Source of the DNA: Verrucomicrobiota bacterium
GTDB lineage: Bacteria > Verrucomicrobiota > Verrucomicrobiia > Limisphaerales > JADLHS01
Length of the DNA stretch: 40,140 nt
Reading direction: 5' to 3'
Assembly (NCBI GenBank): GCA_025350905.1
Contig: JANXWY010000275.1
Span: 1 to 40,140 of the forward strand
Positions 336 to 33,852 of this stretch are shown here, piece after piece (within the stretch, counting starts at the first letter, position 1; each line of letters opens with the position of its first letter). The notes under the pieces are model-generated. The model was given only the letters and a program-made list of their open reading frames with translations. It ran no database searches and was not told the DNA's origin. Position numbers and translations under genes: made by a program.

Positions 336-1091
336 GTGGCCACCTTATATCAGGAAGAATGTGAAGCGGGGACGATTGGTTCTGCGGGAATTTTTCGCTG
401 GACGATCCGCTTCTCCACCGCGGGGAGTTTGGCGGTGATTGCATTCGTACTGCATCAGTGGGGCGCTGTCGAAGTCCGGGCGAATGCCGGCGAGGATTTG
501 TTTCTGACGTTTTTGGGCGGTGTTTGGCTGATGGTGGCAAAGGCTTCGTTTCCCTGGCTTGGTCTAAATGTGCGTGACGACGCGGTCGAAAGGAAAAACC
601 CCGCCGCACTGGTCGCGCTCTGCGGCGCGATGATGGCGGTGGCGTTCACATTCGCGGGCGGCAATATTGGCGAGGGACCTTCGTCCTGGAACAACGTGTT
701 TTCGGCCGCGGTTGCAACCGGCGGACTGTTCGGCTTGTGGCTGCTGCTCGAACTGGGTGCGCGAGTTTCCGTCTCGATTGCCGAGGAGCGAGACCTCGCC
801 TCGGGGGTGAGGCTTAGCGGTTTTCTGATCGCGCTCGGGTTGATTTTTGGGCGCGCTGCGGCGGGCGACTGGCATTCGGAGTCCGCCACCTTGCAGGATT
901 TTGTGCATGAGGGTTGGGCGGCGGTTCTTCTCTGGGTCGTTGCGTTGGTCGTCGAACGGTCGGTGCGACCAAGTCGGCAGCGTCCGTTTCCAGCCTGGGC
1001 CCGGTGCGGATTGCTGCCGGCATTGCTCTACCTTGCGTTTTCGGTTGCCTGGCTGTGGCATCTCGGCGCGTGGGAAGGCATGCCGCAATGA
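336..1091 (+). CDS. Seven-helix integral membrane protein, first gene of the permuted ATP-grasp trio
   Basis: A 251-residue polytopic membrane protein that I do not recognise as a named family. Hydrophobic segments lie near residues 28-46, 54-77, 90-109, 118-141, 159-174, 192-209 and 224-244, so about seven helices. There is no cleavable signal peptide and no clear catalytic motif. The start is GTG at 336; no in-frame ATG lies near it, so the exact start is uncertain. The stop TGA (1089-1091) overlaps the ATG of the next gene (1088) as ATGA, which implies translational coupling. By context it may be the membrane partner, exporter or anchor of the ATP-grasp enzyme that follows; this is inference only. 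Confidence 0.75.
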   Translation: MATLYQEECEAGTIGSAGIFRWTIRFSTAGSLAVIAFVLHQWGAVEVRANAGEDLFLTFLGGVWLMVAKASFPWLGLNVRDDAVERKNPAALVALCGAMMAVAFTFAGGNIGEGPSSWNNVFSAAVATGGLFGLWLLLELGARVSVSIAEERDLASGVRLSGFLIALGLIFGRAAAGDWHSESATLQDFVHEGWAAVLLWVVALVVERSVRPSRQRPFPAWARCGLLPALLYLAFSVAWLWHLGAWEGMPQ

Positions 1092-2362
1092 CAGCCATCG
1101 TCGCAAGCCAACGCCGGCTGATGAGATCTGCGATTGAAGCCCGGGACGCTCACGACCTCCGCGCCGAATGCCCACTCGATAGCGTCGTGTTTTCGACCCT
1201 GCGTCGGCGGGCCATGCTCGAAGGTTGCAAGTGGGACCCGCAGGTCGGCGATGTGGACACGCTGGCGCCCTTTCCGCTCGTGATGAAGCGCGAGGTCTGG
1301 CAGCGCCTTGCTTCACTCGCCGAACAGCTCACCGCGGAAACCGTCGCGGCCGAAGCAGAGATTGCGGGTCGGCCCGAATTGCTTGGTGAGCTGGGTTTGC
1401 CGGCCGCGTTGCGGCGCGTATTGGCCGACCCCACGACCACGACGCCTGCCGCCGCCCGGGTCATCCGATTCGATTTTCATTTTACGACCCAAGGCTGGCG
1501 CATTTCAGAGGCGAACAGCGACGTGCCCGGTGGTTTCAGCGAGGCTTCGCATTTCACGGCCATGATGGCGGCGCATTATCCAAAGCTGGAGCCGGCGGGC
1601 AATCCGGCCGATGCGTGGTGCCTTGCGATCGTTGCGGCCGCCGGCTCGCGGGGAGTGGTCGCGTTACTCTCCGCCGCCGGCTTCATGGAGGATCATCAAG
1701 TCATCGCCTTTCTCGCCGCGCGACTCCGCGAAAGCGGTTGCCGCACGCACCTGGCCAAGCCTGAACAAATCATCTGGCACGATGGCATCGCCCATCTCGA
1801 CACGACGTGGCATCGCGGACCGCTCGATGCCATCGTTCGATTCCATCAGGCCGAGTGGGTCTCAAGGTTGCCGAAGGGAACAGAATGGAAATTATTTTTC
1901 CGCGGCGGCCGAACCCCGGTCGCCAATCCCGCGCTCGCCGTTATTTCAGAAAGCAAACGCTTTCCCATTGTGTGGGGCAGGCTGTCCGCGACCCTCCCGA
2001 CCTGGCGCGCCTTGTTGCCCGAAACCCGCGACCCGCGTGACGTCCCGTGGGCGCACGACGACGGTTGGTTGCTGAAGACGGCAATGTGCAACACGGGTGA
2101 CACGGTCAGTGTCCGCGAATGGATGCGGCCTGAGGCATGGTGGCGGACGCGACTAAATGTGCATCTGCTGCCCGGTAATTGGGCGGCGCAACGACGCTTC
2201 GAATCCCTGCCCGTGGCCACTCCCATCGGGCTGCGTCATGTGTGTATCGGCGTTTACACCGTGAACGGGCGGGCGGCGGGAGCTTATGCTCGGATGTCCG
2301 AAAAACCAGTGATTGATTTTGCCGCAATGGATGTTGCTTTGCTTCTCGAAGAAAATGACTAA
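1088..2362 (+). CDS. Circularly permuted ATP-grasp ligase, glutathionylspermidine-synthase-like
   Basis: A 424-residue protein resembling the glutathionylspermidine synthase/circularly permuted ATP-grasp family, which forms amide bonds between a carboxylate and an amine via an acyl phosphate. The middle region has the family-like block RFDFHFTTQGWRISEANSD followed by VPGGFSEAS. Further on are WLLKTAMCNTGDTV, which fits the ATP-binding lysine and glycine loop, and WAAQRRFESLPVATP with IGVYTVNGRAAGAYAR, which fits the C-terminal metal/phosphate-binding strands. The ATG at 1088 overlaps the upstream stop as ATGA and is preferred over longer starts inside the upstream gene. The 3' end overlaps the next gene by 8 bp. 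Substrates cannot be read from sequence; a thiol-polyamine or peptide conjugate is possible. No amidase domain is present, unlike the bifunctional E. coli Gss. Confidence 0.8.
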   Translation: MTAIVASQRRLMRSAIEARDAHDLRAECPLDSVVFSTLRRRAMLEGCKWDPQVGDVDTLAPFPLVMKREVWQRLASLAEQLTAETVAAEAEIAGRPELLGELGLPAALRRVLADPTTTTPAAARVIRFDFHFTTQGWRISEANSDVPGGFSEASHFTAMMAAHYPKLEPAGNPADAWCLAIVAAAGSRGVVALLSAAGFMEDHQVIAFLAARLRESGCRTHLAKPEQIIWHDGIAHLDTTWHRGPLDAIVRFHQAEWVSRLPKGTEWKLFFRGGRTPVANPALAVISESKRFPIVWGRLSATLPTWRALLPETRDPRDVPWAHDDGWLLKTAMCNTGDTVSVREWMRPEAWWRTRLNVHLLPGNWAAQRRFESLPVATPIGLRHVCIGVYTVNGRAAGAYARMSEKPVIDFAAMDVALLLEEND

Positions 2363-3140
2363 GGAAGAAATATTTGCCGCCTGGGTGCCGGACGCATCGG
2401 TCTGGTCGCGCTGGGCCAAACCGGTTTTGTTCGCGCATCTGGACCTGACCCAATCGAGCTTTCCGGTGGCGGAGCCGGTCCCCGAGGCGAGTTGGTCACC
2501 ACCGCCGGAAGAAAGGGTCGTGCTCGTGCTGGATCTGCCGGGTGCGGAAGGAGTCCTGGCTGGAGTGGCGCTGGCCGCGAAAGGCTATCGCCCGGTGCCC
2601 CTTTACAACGCAGTGCCGATGCCGTCGGCGGAACCGATTTTTGAACCATTGACCGGCAGGGCGGTGGCGGCGGTGAATGTGTTGCCAATCATGAACGCAC
2701 TGAGGAACGGCGCCGGGCTGGTTTTAGCCAGGAATCTTCCATGCGATGCCCCACCCGTTTTTCTGCTTGATGCGAACCGGCGGGGTGAAGGCCGCAAAAT
2801 GCAGCCGGACGAATTTGACAATCGTTCGGTCTGTTTCACCACGGATTTCCCATCGGCAAACTTTCTCCTGGCTCATGGAATTCAACGCGTGTTGTTGGTT
2901 CAACGAACCAGGGGCCAGCCACAATCAGATCTCGCCCACCCATTGCTTCGGTGGCAGGAGGCGGGGCTTGGGCTTGAACGAATTCAGTTCGAATTTCCCC
3001 GCCGGCCCGAGCCTTTGGTTGTTCGTCGGCCTTCATGGTATGGCGCGATGTTCCAGCGGGCGCTTGCCGCGGTCGGTCTGCGCCGCGCCGATACCGGCGG
3101 TTTCGGTGCCTGGGTTCCGGACTCGTCAGCCGGAGGCTGA
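2355..3140 (+). CDS. Unknown protein, third gene of the ATP-grasp trio
   Basis: A 261-residue, probably cytosolic protein with no family I recognise. The ATG at 2355 lies 8 bp inside the ATP-grasp gene, so it is almost certainly co-translated with it. Visible features are an alpha/beta-like stretch (VVLVLDLPGAEGVLAGVALA, about residues 59-78), PVFLLDANRRGEG, and a matched pair of short motifs: AAWVPDAS near residue 8 and GAWVPDSS at the C-terminus. A hairpin (CGTCAGCC/GGCTGACG, 3124-3142) spans the stop codon. The protein may bind a nucleotide or sugar, but nothing in the sequence proves this. Strict overlap with the ligase suggests it is a subunit or the next step of one pathway. Confidence 0.75.
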   Translation: MTKEEIFAAWVPDASVWSRWAKPVLFAHLDLTQSSFPVAEPVPEASWSPPPEERVVLVLDLPGAEGVLAGVALAAKGYRPVPLYNAVPMPSAEPIFEPLTGRAVAAVNVLPIMNALRNGAGLVLARNLPCDAPPVFLLDANRRGEGRKMQPDEFDNRSVCFTTDFPSANFLLAHGIQRVLLVQRTRGQPQSDLAHPLLRWQEAGLGLERIQFEFPRRPEPLVVRRPSWYGAMFQRALAAVGLRRADTGGFGAWVPDSSAGG

Positions 3141-3179
3141 CGCTGCCGGACTCGAAGTCTCCACAGCAGCTCCAATTGT

Positions 3180-3210
3180 AAAAAAAGAGCGCGCCATTGC
3201 TGGCGCGCTC
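3180..3210 (-). terminator. Rho-independent terminator of the SPFH gene
   Basis: A perfect 10-bp stem (GAGCGCGCCA 3187-3196 with TGGCGCGCTC 3201-3210) has a four-base loop. On the minus strand it is followed by seven T (complement of 3180-3186). It lies about 25 bp beyond the stop of the SPFH gene. On the plus strand only a short T stretch follows, so it may act weakly in both directions between the convergent genes. Confidence 0.85.
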
Positions 3211-3234
3211 TTGTGGTTCCACTCTTACATCAAC

Positions 3235-5040
3235 TCAATTCTGTTGCGCTGGCGTTGCTTCTTTCGCCTGACTGCGCAGCATCACGCCGAGCAGTCCGTC
3301 CACCAGGCCGGTGCTGCCGCCCGCACCGGTCACCGCCACATCAGGCACAATGCGCACGTTGCGCTCGCCGACGATCTGCATGAGTTGCATGACGGTGTAG
3401 CCTTGCGCGCCAATCGCCGCAACGCCCACGCGGTAGGCTTCCGCCTTCGCCTGGCCGGTGGCGCGGATGGCTTCCGCTTCACCCAGCGCATGGAGGCGCG
3501 TGGCCTCGGCTTCGCCGGTGGCCTGCTTCACGTTCGCGTTGGCTTGCAACTCGGCGATGTTCACGCCTTGTTCCGCTCCGACAACTTGTTGCTGGATGTC
3601 GGCGAGCGAGGTCTGGCGCACCAGTTGTTGGCGCTGGATTTGCGCGGCTTCCTGCACCTGATAGGTCTTGCGCCGTTCCTCGGCGATCTTGCGATCGGTC
3701 TGGGTCTGCATGAGCTCGGCGGGCGGATTGATGTCGCCGATGAGCGAATCAATCGCCTGTACGTCATACGTCCCGATGGCGGCGCGGATGTGCGCGGCGG
3801 CATCCACTTGCCGCTGGCTGCGGGCGCCCAGGAAGTCGAGCGCGGTGAAATCCTGCGCGGAGTTGCGGAAATAATTTCCCACAATCGGTTGCAGGACGTG
3901 ATCCACGAGGTTCTGCATCGAACCCACGCGCGAAATCACCTTCGGCGCATCGAGGGCGCCCACATGAATGATTTGCGCCACGTCGAGGTTGAAGGCGAAC
4001 CCGTCCTTCGAGCGCACGGTGATGGACGAGAGTTTCGCGTCGTAGTTGTGCGCCTCGGTGCGCGAGGCCCAGTTGAGCACAATGTTCGTCGTGGGCACGA
4101 GTTCCACCTTCATGATGCGGGTGTTGATCGGATGTTTGCCGGGATAAAGTGGCGTCACCCAGACGCCTTCGTGACCGACGTTGACGAGGTCGCCGTGTTT
4201 GAACTCCAGGCCGCTCACGTCTTCATGTGCCTTGCCGACGAAGGAGATGACCACGCCGACCGAGCCGATGGGAATCTGCACCATCGGGACTTGTTCCACC
4301 TGCACGAACCACGGATTCAAGTTCCAGGAACCGGACAACAGCACTTGATCCTGCAAGCCGCGCCGTCCGCCGCCCGTCAGGAACGCCTGGGCGTTCTGGA
4401 AGTTTTCGTGCCCGGCGATGACCGGCCCGGCAATTTCGCCGGCTTCGATGGATTGTCCATCCAGTGTGATGACGATGCCCACCATGTCCGACTCGACGCG
4501 TTGCAGCAGCAACTGGTCGCTCAACATGCCGTGCTCCGGTGCGTTCGCCGCATTGATGACGGCGAACATCGCCGTGTTGATGCGATAGGTGCCCGCGGTA
4601 AGGATCCCGAGCTGGCGACCTTTCTCGCCGCCGTACAACAGGAACTTCCGGGCGTCCTGGAAGGCATCGCACGCGACGACTTTTCCCAGGATGTGCTCGG
4701 TGGGCATCGTCGTGCCGTCCGCCGCGATGACCAAGGCGATTTCGCCCTGCGGCACCACGGTGACCGGGACTTTAAGGACGCGGTATTGCCACGGCCAATA
4801 GCCGAAGTGCAGTCCGGGCGCGAGGGTGTCCGCCTGATAACCTGCCTCGCCATCCAACGCCACCAGCCGGCCCGGCGCGAGGCTGCGGCGTGCGAACCGC
4901 TTCACCACTATCCCCACTTGTCGCTCGCGAATCAGCACGAGACTGGAGAGCAGAACCAGGCAAGTCAGGGCCAGCAGATAATGATACCAAGCCACGCTCA
5001 GCCAATTGCCTCCGATCGCCACCATGATGTTCATTGTCAT
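3235..5040 (-). CDS. Flotillin-like SPFH/band 7 domain protein
   Basis: A 601-residue SPFH (stomatin/prohibitin/flotillin) protein expected to scaffold membrane microdomains. It has one N-terminal transmembrane helix (WYHYLLALTCLVLLSSLVLI). A first SPFH-like region follows (RQVGIVVKRF to LAPGLHFGYWPWQYRV), then a central region with the typical PGKHPINTRI and DGFAFNLDV blocks. The C-terminal part is Glu/Ala/Gln-rich and probably coiled coil, with flotillin-like GEAEA repeats (ATGEAEATRLHALGEAEAIR). The tail is Gly/Ala-rich. The ATG at 5040 is chosen because GGAG (5048-5051) lies 7 bases upstream; an in-frame upstream extension to 5097 has no such support. It is monocistronic, with its own terminator at 3180-3210. 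Confidence 0.9.
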   Translation of the reverse strand: MTMNIMVAIGGNWLSVAWYHYLLALTCLVLLSSLVLIRERQVGIVVKRFARRSLAPGRLVALDGEAGYQADTLAPGLHFGYWPWQYRVLKVPVTVVPQGEIALVIAADGTTMPTEHILGKVVACDAFQDARKFLLYGGEKGRQLGILTAGTYRINTAMFAVINAANAPEHGMLSDQLLLQRVESDMVGIVITLDGQSIEAGEIAGPVIAGHENFQNAQAFLTGGGRRGLQDQVLLSGSWNLNPWFVQVEQVPMVQIPIGSVGVVISFVGKAHEDVSGLEFKHGDLVNVGHEGVWVTPLYPGKHPINTRIMKVELVPTTNIVLNWASRTEAHNYDAKLSSITVRSKDGFAFNLDVAQIIHVGALDAPKVISRVGSMQNLVDHVLQPIVGNYFRNSAQDFTALDFLGARSQRQVDAAAHIRAAIGTYDVQAIDSLIGDINPPAELMQTQTDRKIAEERRKTYQVQEAAQIQRQQLVRQTSLADIQQQVVGAEQGVNIAELQANANVKQATGEAEATRLHALGEAEAIRATGQAKAEAYRVGVAAIGAQGYTVMQLMQIVGERNVRIVPDVAVTGAGGSTGLVDGLLGVMLRSQAKEATPAQQN

Positions 5041-5476
5041 AACCCAACTCCGATGTGGTTGCGACGAAACGTGGCTTTTCGCCACGCCACGACGCAACGC
5101 GTTTCATTGGGGTGACCGTGGTGTCCCGCACACGCGGGGACTAGAGGATCGCCCTTCCAAAGGCCGACGAGGTTAGCTGACGGGCTCGGTCTTGAAAGTG
5201 ACCGCGACGATGGTTCGCCATCGCCGTTCGCCCCGCCCCCGGACTTTCGTCCAAGGATTTGGGTCCCCCGCGTTGACTTGCAGGAAGGCAAGCCAACTTA
5301 GGCTGCTACGAGCCAAGCTTATCTCATGACGCCGTCCAACCGTCAAGCTGGCCAGACGGAACGACTTGACCAGCAAGCCAATAAAATCAGCTTCCTGGGG
5401 TGTCGTGGTTGAAAACCGAATTTGAAACCGACGCTAAAGCCGGGCGGCGGACGGTTGCACCGGATGCGGGTTCGGC
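5041..5476. other. Gene-free stretch between the SPFH gene and the RDD operon end
   Basis: About 436 bases without a convincing gene. It must hold the SPFH promoter (minus strand) and the end of the long minus-strand operon. Bases 5048-5051 form the SPFH ribosome binding site. I see no clear promoter boxes, no T-tailed hairpin for the operon, and no repeat array. Confidence 0.5.
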
Positions 5477-31321: not shown

Positions 31322-31642
31322 ATGCCTGAACCCCTCGAACAACTCGCCCGTCAGCAGATCGAAGCGCAACTCGTCGCCGCCGGTTGGGTCGTTCAGGATT
31401 ACCGGCAATTCAATCCCGCCGCCGGCCGCGGCATCGCGCTGCGCGAAGCGCCGCTCAAATCCGGCACGTGCGATTATCTCCTGCTCGTGGATCGCAAAGC
31501 CGTCGGCGTCACCGAGGCGAAGACTCGCTTCCCGACGACGCAGGCTTGTTCCCAATTGTGTCGCCTGTCCCAAGGTTTCATCAGTAAAGCTGGAAATTGG
31601 GACTTTTGTGGGTTCGGCATTCATGGCAACTTCCGCGGGTGA
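31322..31642 (+). pseudogene. Type I restriction subunit HsdR, N-terminal fragment
   Basis: A 106-codon remnant. The first 68 codons match the N-terminal nuclease domain of EcoEI-type HsdR: LEQLARQQIEAQLVAAGWVV, then GRGIALREAPLKSGTCDYLL and LVDRKAVGVTEAK. It keeps the PD-(D/E)xK core (Asp in CDYLL and TEAK). After TEAK (about base 31524) the sequence stops resembling HsdR, and the helicase, modification and specificity parts are missing. The stop overlaps the larB GTG as GTGA, so the remnant may still be translated and coupled to larB. A full HsdR has about 800-1000 residues. Confidence 0.82.
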
Positions 31643-32403
31643 CGACGGCTGACGCCCTTCAACTCCTGGAACAATTTCGCGCCGGTGGCGTGAGCCGCGC
31701 TCAGGTGCTACGCGCGTTCCAAGCCGCGCCGGTGGCGGATCTTGGCTTCGCCCAGGTGGACACGCACCGGGCGCTACGCAAAGGTTTTCCCGAAGTGATT
31801 TTCGGCGCGGGCAAGTCCCCCGGTCAGGTCGTAAAAATTGCCACGACCCTGCTGGCGCACGGGCAACGGGTCCTCATCACGCGCATTACAACCGAACACG
31901 CCCGCGCCCTGCGGAAAAAATTCGAGCACGCCATCCATCACGAACTGGCGCGGTGCGTGACCATCGAGAAACGGCCCTTGCCCCGGCGCGCGGGCCGGAT
32001 CGCCGTGATCTGCGCGGGAACAAGTGATTTGCCCGTGGCGGAGGAAGCCGCCGTTACGGCCGAGATCATGGGCAATCGCGTGGAGCGCATCGTTGATGTC
32101 GGCGTGGCGGGTCTCCACCGGATCCTGTCGCAGCTCACCGCGTTGCAAAGCGCCAATGTTCTGGTGGTGGTGGCCGGCATGGAAGGGGCACTGCCCAGCG
32201 TGGTCGCTGGTTTGGTGAGCCAGCCGGTCATTGCCGTGCCGACCAGCATCGGTTACGGCGCCAGTTTCGGGGGCGTGGCGGCGTTGCTCGGTATGCTCAA
32301 CAGTTGCGGCAGCGGCGTGACGGTGGTGAACATAGACAACGGCTTCGGCGCCGGCTATGCGGCGAGCCAGATCAATGCCTTGGCGGCGGTAGCCCAAGCT
32401 TAA
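31639..32403 (+). CDS. larB: Nickel-pincer cofactor biosynthesis protein LarB
   Basis: A 254-residue LarB, which carboxylates and hydrolyses nicotinic acid adenine dinucleotide to begin synthesis of the nickel-pincer nucleotide. The C-terminal half is PurE-like: [57 protein letters not shown] and [20 protein letters not shown]. The first 90 residues match the LarB-specific part ([15 protein letters not shown]). The GTG at 31639 overlaps the HsdR remnant's stop and gives the typical length; the longer frame from 31597 has no similarity. larC follows 81 bases on. Confidence 0.93.
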
Positions 32404-32484
32404 TCGTTTTCTAATTCCTCCCCACCGACAATTCGTTGCTTGGATTAAGAATGGCTGCCGGATTACGATTGCGCGCGGAACGAA

Positions 32485-33852
32485 ATGAAAACCTTGTATC
32501 TCGACATCTTCAGCGGCATCAGCGGCGACATGTTTATCGGCGCTCTGATTGATCTGGGCGTGGACGCGCGCCGGTTGGAGCGCGAACTCGGCAAGCTCAA
32601 GCTCGATGGGTATCACCTTCACATCGCGCGCCAGCACAAGTCCGCGATCGAAGGTGTGAAATTCGACGTGCACCTCGCGCCGGAGCACCAGGCTGGACCG
32701 GATCATCACCATGACCACCACCACGATCATGGTGCTAAGCATCGGGAACACGGCCCCGCTCACCCGCACGATCATGGGCTGGAAGCGACGCCGGAGCACG
32801 ATCACGGTGATGATCACCACGCGGATGAACGGACGTTCACCGCGATCAAGAAACTCATCAACACCAGCAAGCTCTCGCCTTGGGTGAAACGGAAATCGAT
32901 TGCGGTCTTCCAGCGCATCGCCGGGGCGGAAGGGAAAATTCACGGCCGGCCACCGGCCCAGGTTCATTTCCACGAAGTCGGCGCGGTGGATTCCATCGTG
33001 GACATCGTGGGCGCGGCCATTGCGCTGGAAATGCTGGGCCGGCCGCGCGTGTTGGCGTCGCTGGTGGTGGAAGGCACGGGCTGGGTGAAATGCGCGCATG
33101 GCCGCTTTCCGGTGCCCACCCCGGCCACGCTTGCGATTTTGGGCGCGCGCGGCATCGGCCTCACGCAGTGCGCAGAGCCGCACGAGCTCGTCACTCCGAC
33201 CGGCGCGGCGCTGTTGGCGGAATTTGTTGAAAGTTTTGGGCCGATGAGCGGTCTGGTGGCGGAACGCATAGGGTTCGGGCTGGGCACGCGCGATCATCAG
33301 ACACGGCCGAATGTGCTGCGAGCCGTGTTGGGAACGCCGGCTAAAGTCCAAAGCCCAAAGTCCAAAGTTGCTCGCAACTCCGCGTCAGAACTTGATTGGG
33401 AAACCGACCGCGTCGCGGTGCTCGAAACCAATCTGGACGACGTCAGCGGCGAAATGCTCGGACGCTTTGTCGAAACGGCGCTCGCCGCCGGGGCGCTGGA
33501 CGTTTTCCACACCCCGATTCAGATGAAGAAGAATCGGCCTGGCATTTTACTCACCGTGCTCTGCGCCGAAGCGGCGGCGGACCGGTTCAGTGAACTGATC
33601 CTGCGCGAGACGACCGCCTTCGGCGTGCGGCGCACGATTGCCGAGCGCCGCAAGTTGCGCCGCGAATTTGCGACGGTGGAAACCCAGTTCGGCCGTGTGA
33701 CGCTGAAGTTGGGCCAGCTGAACGGCCAAGGGGTCCAAACCGCGCCGGAGTTTGAGTCCTGCAAAAAGCTCGCGCTGCAAAAGGGCGTTCCGTTGAAGCA
33801 GGTTTACGAAGCCGCGTTGTCAACTTTCGCCAAAGGAGCGCGCGGCTCCTGA
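32485..33852 (+). CDS. larC: Nickel insertion protein LarC, single-frame, His-rich
   Basis: A 455-residue LarC, which inserts nickel into the pincer cofactor. It begins YLDIFSGISGDMFIGALIDL and has HFHEVGAVDSIVDIVGAAIA, AHGRFPVPTPAT and HELVTPTGAALLAEF. The second domain has ETNLDDVSGEMLGRF and FHTPIQMKKNRPGILLTVLC. In lactobacilli larC is split by a programmed frameshift; here both halves are in one continuous frame. Residues 69-116 are extremely His/Asp-rich (HHHDHHHDHG), a likely nickel-binding segment. Residues 286-295 (VQSPKSKVA) are encoded by four heptamers, a visible in-frame repeat insertion at the domain boundary. No larA or larE is seen in the window. Confidence 0.95.
   Translation: MKTLYLDIFSGISGDMFIGALIDLGVDARRLERELGKLKLDGYHLHIARQHKSAIEGVKFDVHLAPEHQAGPDHHHDHHHDHGAKHREHGPAHPHDHGLEATPEHDHGDDHHADERTFTAIKKLINTSKLSPWVKRKSIAVFQRIAGAEGKIHGRPPAQVHFHEVGAVDSIVDIVGAAIALEMLGRPRVLASLVVEGTGWVKCAHGRFPVPTPATLAILGARGIGLTQCAEPHELVTPTGAALLAEFVESFGPMSGLVAERIGFGLGTRDHQTRPNVLRAVLGTPAKVQSPKSKVARNSASELDWETDRVAVLETNLDDVSGEMLGRFVETALAAGALDVFHTPIQMKKNRPGILLTVLCAEAAADRFSELILRETTAFGVRRTIAERRKLRREFATVETQFGRVTLKLGQLNGQGVQTAPEFESCKKLALQKGVPLKQVYEAALSTFAKGARGS
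33343..33370 (+). repeat. Four heptamers inside larC
   Basis: AAAGTCC, AAAGCCC, AAAGTCC and AAAGTTG are contiguous, in perfect 7-base register, and lie at the junction of the two LarC domains. Four units are 28 bases, so neighbouring changes must restore the frame. Confidence 0.88.

Follow-up and report, generated by a model that had tools for sequence, protein, structure and literature searches.

A conserved Verrucomicrobiota gene trio of a DUF350 membrane protein, a divergent GSP_synth ligase and a glycine-tailed candidate carrier

The glutathionylspermidine synthetase Gss acts on glutathione, activating its C-terminal glycine. Ligases resembling this enzyme, and DUF350 proteins, are widespread and mostly have no assigned job. 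Two such ligases of E. coli, YgiC and YjfC, are annotated as peptide-spermidine ligases, and a passage of PMC12568646 cites Pederick et al. 2023 for their activity. Operons combining DUF350 with a GSP-synthetase-like ligase, with PspA and band-7 partners, are described in passages of Ravi et al. 2024 (PMC11237479), which removes the novelty that a preliminary description of the DNA studied here had allowed for when it considered a conjugate or envelope modification of an unreported kind. Here, we analysed a stretch of 40,140 nucleotides from a Verrucomicrobiota bacterium (the window), in which a ligase gene of this type (L) lies between the genes for a membrane protein (M) and a third protein (U), as listed in Table 1.

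Layout and conservation of the trio

Table 1. Positions of the trio genes and their features in the window
Feature	Position	Strand	Remarks
M, DUF350 (YjfL-like) membrane protein	336..1091	+	251 aa, GTG start; Pfam PF03994, hydropathy, upstream of L in 17 loci
M stop/L start overlap, ATGA, 4 nt	1088..1091	+	
L, divergent GSP_synth (glutathionylspermidine-synthetase-like) ATP-grasp ligase	1088..2362	+	424 aa, no amidase domain; ATG of ATGA is the start
Ligase Mg/ATP motif RFDF...SEANSDVPGGFSEA, residues R127-A153	1466..1546	+	alignment to Gss, YgiC and YjfC
L/U overlap, 8 nt	2355..2362	+	
U, proposed carrier protein	2355..3140	+	261 aa, alpha/beta core; no Pfam/NCBIfam family
U C-terminal tail RADTGGFGAWVPDSSAGG, proposed ligase substrate ending in a Gly carboxylate	3084..3137	+	

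Translation of the M, L and U frames bore out the overlaps of 4 and 8 bases reported earlier. The accompanying claim of obligate co-translation was too strong, since in several relatives L and U are separated by 2-97 nt, although the overlap itself is compatible with translational coupling. L and U overlap in 15 of the 21 loci that could be evaluated, and the same M-L-U order occurs in genomes from two classes of the phylum. Chance falls far short of explaining this arrangement.

An initial search with U and L found both genes side by side in other families and in another class. Profile searches were carried out on 245 genomes of the window's order and 240 genomes of a second class, and the U profile detected homologues in 18 and 5 of these, respectively. 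Close ligases, defined in the order sample as those with E below 1e-25 with the L profile, were present in exactly the same 18 genomes of the order as U; if the two were independent, such co-occurrence would have a probability of about 1e-27, a figure that ignores phylogeny. U was directly downstream of L in all fetched loci where the contig allows, and M was upstream of L-U in 17 of the 19 loci able to show it, the two without a recognised M being L063 and L069. Outside the trio, gene conservation between loci was limited to pairs of close relatives, and U was absent from the plasmids and viral contigs searched.

The trio is a real unit, and the conserved system suspected in the preliminary description is borne out by the adjacency of U and close L in the same 18 of 245 genomes. 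That description had named two observations that would speak against a system, namely ligases normally found alone and partners absent outside this genome; we found that ligases of this clade never occurred without U in the 245 genomes and that the partners are present elsewhere. This check concerned the trio-type ligases and set aside the other GSP_synth ligases of the window's family (in G002, G004, G008 and G009), which fall on a distant canonical branch where they were placed in the tree. Genome G130 contains a lone, frameshifted U (L029, 8744-9429) with its tail coding stretch intact and no M or L nearby, which is probably a remnant of the cassette.

Two other regions of the window were noted by eye. 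A SPFH/flotillin-like gene at 3235-5097 on the minus strand, convergent with the trio, resembles the band-7 partners of PSP-type operons, but was dropped as a candidate partner because the other trio loci have no similar gene beside them. At 31597-33852, a LarB-like gene is followed by a His-rich LarC-like gene, both of the nickel-pincer cofactor type.

The ligase and the membrane protein

L matches PF03738 (GSP_synth) in Pfam (E = 1.6e-12; 47.8 bits against a cut-off of 29.3), and its AlphaFold (AF2) model has a pLDDT of 88.6. A Foldseek search of the PDB with this model gave YgiC (7uk8 and 7uka) and YjfC (7uk6) as the best matches (TM 0.69-0.78; lowest E = 4.6e-18, with YgiC 7uk8), followed by Gss. 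At the sequence level, a profile built from the trio ligases also matched YgiC and Gss. The Gss residues R316, D318, E330, N332, K498, K533 and R598 have Mg/ATP and catalytic roles; their equivalents are invariant in 19 of 19 trio ligases, the first four falling inside L residues R127-A153. With this Pfam match and the fold and catalytic residues of YgiC, YjfC and Gss, the assignment of L as a GSP-synthetase-like ATP-grasp ligase stands, as does the statement that it lacks the amidase half of E. coli Gss: neither Pfam nor NCBIfam gave an amidase match, and the N-terminal CHAP amidase domain of the bifunctional enzyme is absent. The Gss serines S335 and S337 are replaced in the trio ligases by V (A in one case) and G, with a VPGG motif, suggesting that the acyl substrate of L is probably not glutathione. 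In the tree, the trio ligases form one clade (100/100 support) on a long branch apart from all sampled ligases of the YgiC/YjfC type.

Weak matches to the ligase profile in L117-L123 seem not to be ligases and were rejected. In L030 (13704-15008), from the window's own genus, a canonical GSP_synth ligase gene is followed by a DUF4178 gene that overlaps its end, DUF4178 being another association named in passages of the PSP literature. On a plasmid of Roseomonas haemaphysalidis (L086, 3926-6276), two tandem ligase genes precede those for DUF350 and DUF1190 proteins; the second ligase, from which several catalytic residues have been lost, resembles a pseudo-ligase.

M has about seven hydrophobic segments by hydropathy, in agreement with the seven-helix membrane protein first described beside the ligase, and matches PF03994 (DUF350) in Pfam (E = 2.7e-6; 27.9 bits against a cut-off of 26), whereas some of its relatives score under that cut-off. 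Linkage of its gene to those of L and U suggests that M may act at the membrane or envelope.

The third protein and its glycine tail

U has no match in Pfam, including DUF1190, or in NCBIfam, consistent with its earlier listing as a protein of no known family, and its relatives gave only sub-threshold family matches that are probably due to chance. Its AF2 model (pLDDT 85.7, pTM 0.82) predicts a confident alpha/beta core, for which Foldseek and VIA-align comparisons with the PDB yielded nothing significant (best E 0.024; best Z 4.6), so that we call it only a generic alpha/beta fold. In the alignment, the core residues D60, D139, R142 and D155-N156-R157 are invariant or nearly so. U has no recognisable signal or anchor, and no N-terminal lipobox was seen by eye.

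The last 20 or so residues of U form a tail in which the pLDDT of the AF2 model falls from 53 to 34 and which is presumably flexible or disordered. Its pattern is GGFGxxxPxxSxGG, with RxxxGG[FY]Gxx[VI]PxxS..G in most rows of the alignment. Despite varied length after GG[FY]G, the terminal residue is glycine in 22 of 23 U homologues. The remaining one, L066, carries a frameshift, and translation in its other frame gives GGFGAMVPEVTQSSGSIGGWG; L029, likewise frameshifted, gives GGFGAIVPQPSESSGGTFHGGGFG in the other frame. A terminal glycine occurs in 0 of 22 L proteins, 0 of 17 M proteins and 19 of 272 (7%) flanking ORFs of the loci, and its combination with GG[FYW]G is found in 19 of 23 U homologues versus 0 of 272 flanking ORFs. 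Comparison of the tail codons of the window with those of AV7, which is 70% identical, revealed 7 that were the same, 7 with synonymous and 4 with nonsynonymous changes, a small sample in which change around GGFGAWVP is mostly synonymous. The tail is not explained by gene overlap, since in the window no same-direction gene of annotated size covers the 3' end of U and the gene converging on it stops at 3235. Together with its recurrence beside other such ligases, the conserved tail looks to be the most telling feature of the locus, and one that the preliminary description missed.

We found that tails of the form RGG[FYW]G...G/S/A end otherwise unrelated, mostly lipoprotein, neighbours of ligases in Proteobacteria, Actinomycetota and Deinococcota, and in E. 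coli. In E. coli K-12, YgiB ends TRGGFG...SMGG and YjfM ends SRGGYGRSSSARGHWGG (SRGGYG...HWGG), their genes each lying directly upstream of the ligase gene, ygiC or yjfC. An hhalign comparison of U with YgiB aligned only 14 residues of the tail GGFG stretch, which was not significant, and judged by sequence the two proteins are unrelated apart from the tail. The tails of U and of the DUF1190 proteins YgiB and YjfM both have GG[FYW]G and a terminal GG, with the arginine a few residues further upstream in U.

Among plasmid ligase loci, picked for diversity and not at random, tailed DUF1190 neighbours were found in Vibrio, Rhizobium, Sulfitobacter, Pseudomonas, Asticcacaulis and Roseomonas, tailed small proteins with no Pfam family in Pseudarthrobacter, Deinococcus, Sphingomonas and Acinetobacter, and a tail on an unannotated frame in Methylobacterium. 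Weaker, Gly/Ser-rich ends were seen at the ligase loci of Bacillus, Brevibacillus and Trichormus, and no tailed neighbour was found at the Azospirillum ligase locus or in the stretches around the canonical ligases of G002, G004 and G008, from the window's family. The association is strong, but not universal, as some genera have no tail. Most tailed neighbours have a lipobox-like start by eye, and the terminal residue of the carriers other than U is G, S or A. Within the window's order, L112 (G427; 1159-3381) comprises a DUF350 gene, a gene for a tailed small protein (SRGGFG...) and a canonical ligase gene, and L114 (G623; 929-1339) has a tailed lipoprotein (SRGGFG...) beside a canonical ligase; these small proteins are a second, independent candidate carrier type in the order.

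Proposed conjugation and comparison with known systems

We propose, with a probability of roughly 0.6, that the trio is a protein-conjugation cassette, in which L joins the C-terminal glycine of U to a small, polyamine-like amine and M is the membrane partner. In this scheme, L would spend ATP on activating the glycine carboxylate at the end of the flexible GGFG...GG tail and would then couple the activated tail to a small amine, a polyamine or similar compound being the likeliest. U would be a protein carrier replacing glutathione, and replacing the tailed lipoproteins (DUF1190 proteins YgiB and YjfM, and others) encoded beside related ligases, and modified U would work together with the DUF350 protein M at the membrane. 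Because the ligase gene travels with that of a flexible glycine-tailed protein, the tail is most simply taken as the substrate, and ligation of an amine to its C-terminal carboxylate would be by analogy with the relatives of L; we infer the tail to be the substrate, and likewise the nature of the amine and a role at the membrane or envelope. No match to AdoMet decarboxylase or carboxynorspermidine decarboxylase (nspC) was found in the window's genome (95% complete), which has only two long Spermine_synth-like matches. With no match to these decarboxylases, spermidine is not assured, and uptake, another route or another amine has to be considered.

Several points run counter to the proposal. 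The terminal glycine is not universal, given the other ends of the non-U carriers, L is without the Gss serines S335 and S337, and no tailed neighbour was seen beside the ligase of Azospirillum or the canonical ligases of G002, G004 and G008. Most of the other carriers are lipoprotein-like, and their tails would be exported away from cytosolic ATP, a difficulty that U, with no recognised signal, would avoid. The chances are about even for a broader version, in which GSP_synth-type ligases would be a general bacterial C-terminal conjugation system with an amine-capped RGG[FYW]G...G tail, DUF350 partners and unrelated carriers, mostly lipoproteins and, in Verrucomicrobiota, a Rossmann-like cytosolic protein, the carrier having been swapped in the window.

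The near-invariant residues in the well-predicted core of U seem to imply more than a passive carrier, and U may instead be an enzyme or regulatory subunit whose tail only docks to L, with L making a small peptide-polyamine metabolite. We regard this as unlikely, as it gives no account of why the last residue is kept as glycine while tail length varies, or of why a like tail is present on unrelated small lipoproteins beside other such ligases. It is doubtful, and more so than the docking role, that L joins the glycine of U to the amine of a membrane lipid or aminosugar, anchoring U beside the DUF350 protein much as lipidation anchors Atg8: although U has no recognised signal or anchor and yet is regularly encoded with a membrane protein, and the window's genome yielded no standard polyamine genes, YgiC and YjfC are annotated as spermidine ligases, and the characterised relatives of L, to our knowledge, use soluble amines. 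The Pfam family and a gene order like yjfL-yjfM-yjfC would also suit a conventional operon for YjfC-type glutathionylspermidine or peptide-spermidine metabolism, with the tail of U a by-product of low-complexity ends. This is the least probable of these alternatives, since the combined tail motif is frequent in U and missing from the flanking ORFs, the tail changes between the window and AV7 are mostly synonymous around the motif, and L belongs to a separate, fully supported clade.

Read as a conjugation cassette, the trio has its closest counterparts in E. coli, where yjfL-yjfM-yjfC (within yjfIJKLMC) and ygiB-ygiC likewise encode a tailed protein together with a GSP_synth-type ligase, where the yjf operon also encodes a DUF350 membrane protein, and where both ligases share their fold and catalytic residues with L. 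However, the E. coli tailed protein is a DUF1190 lipoprotein, whereas U is an unrelated alpha/beta protein without a lipobox; the E. coli ligases are only about 13% identical to L in structural alignment; and the flanks of the trio contain no conserved PspA, YjfI or YjfK-like gene. Gss resembles L in its ligase domain fold, in its Mg/ATP residues and, on the proposed reading of L, in activating a C-terminal glycine, but L differs in having no amidase domain, in its V/G residues at S335/S337 and in its proposed substrate, a protein tail. Ubiquitin-like and Atg8 conjugation also proceeds by activation of a C-terminal glycine, a likeness by analogy only: enzyme and carrier are unrelated to those of the trio, which has no E1 or E2 components and is not a member of these systems.

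The PspA-linked polyamine operons in the passages of PMC11237479 resemble the trio in combining a glutathionylspermidine-synthetase-related ATP-grasp ligase with a YjfL-family DUF350 protein, one variant having band-7 proteins; unlike them, the trio has no conserved CesT/Tir, PspA, AdoMet decarboxylase or oxidase gene, and U and the shared tail are not described in those passages. Literature searches gave no description of U, of the trio or of the common tail, and Pederick et al. 2023 may already discuss the ends of YgiB and YjfM. The tail common to these unrelated neighbours points to a concrete candidate substrate, making the question of what these ligases modify testable. U itself would constitute a new protein family and a kind of carrier that the literature searched does not mention. 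In comparison with the known systems, the general kind is known and U is the new element.
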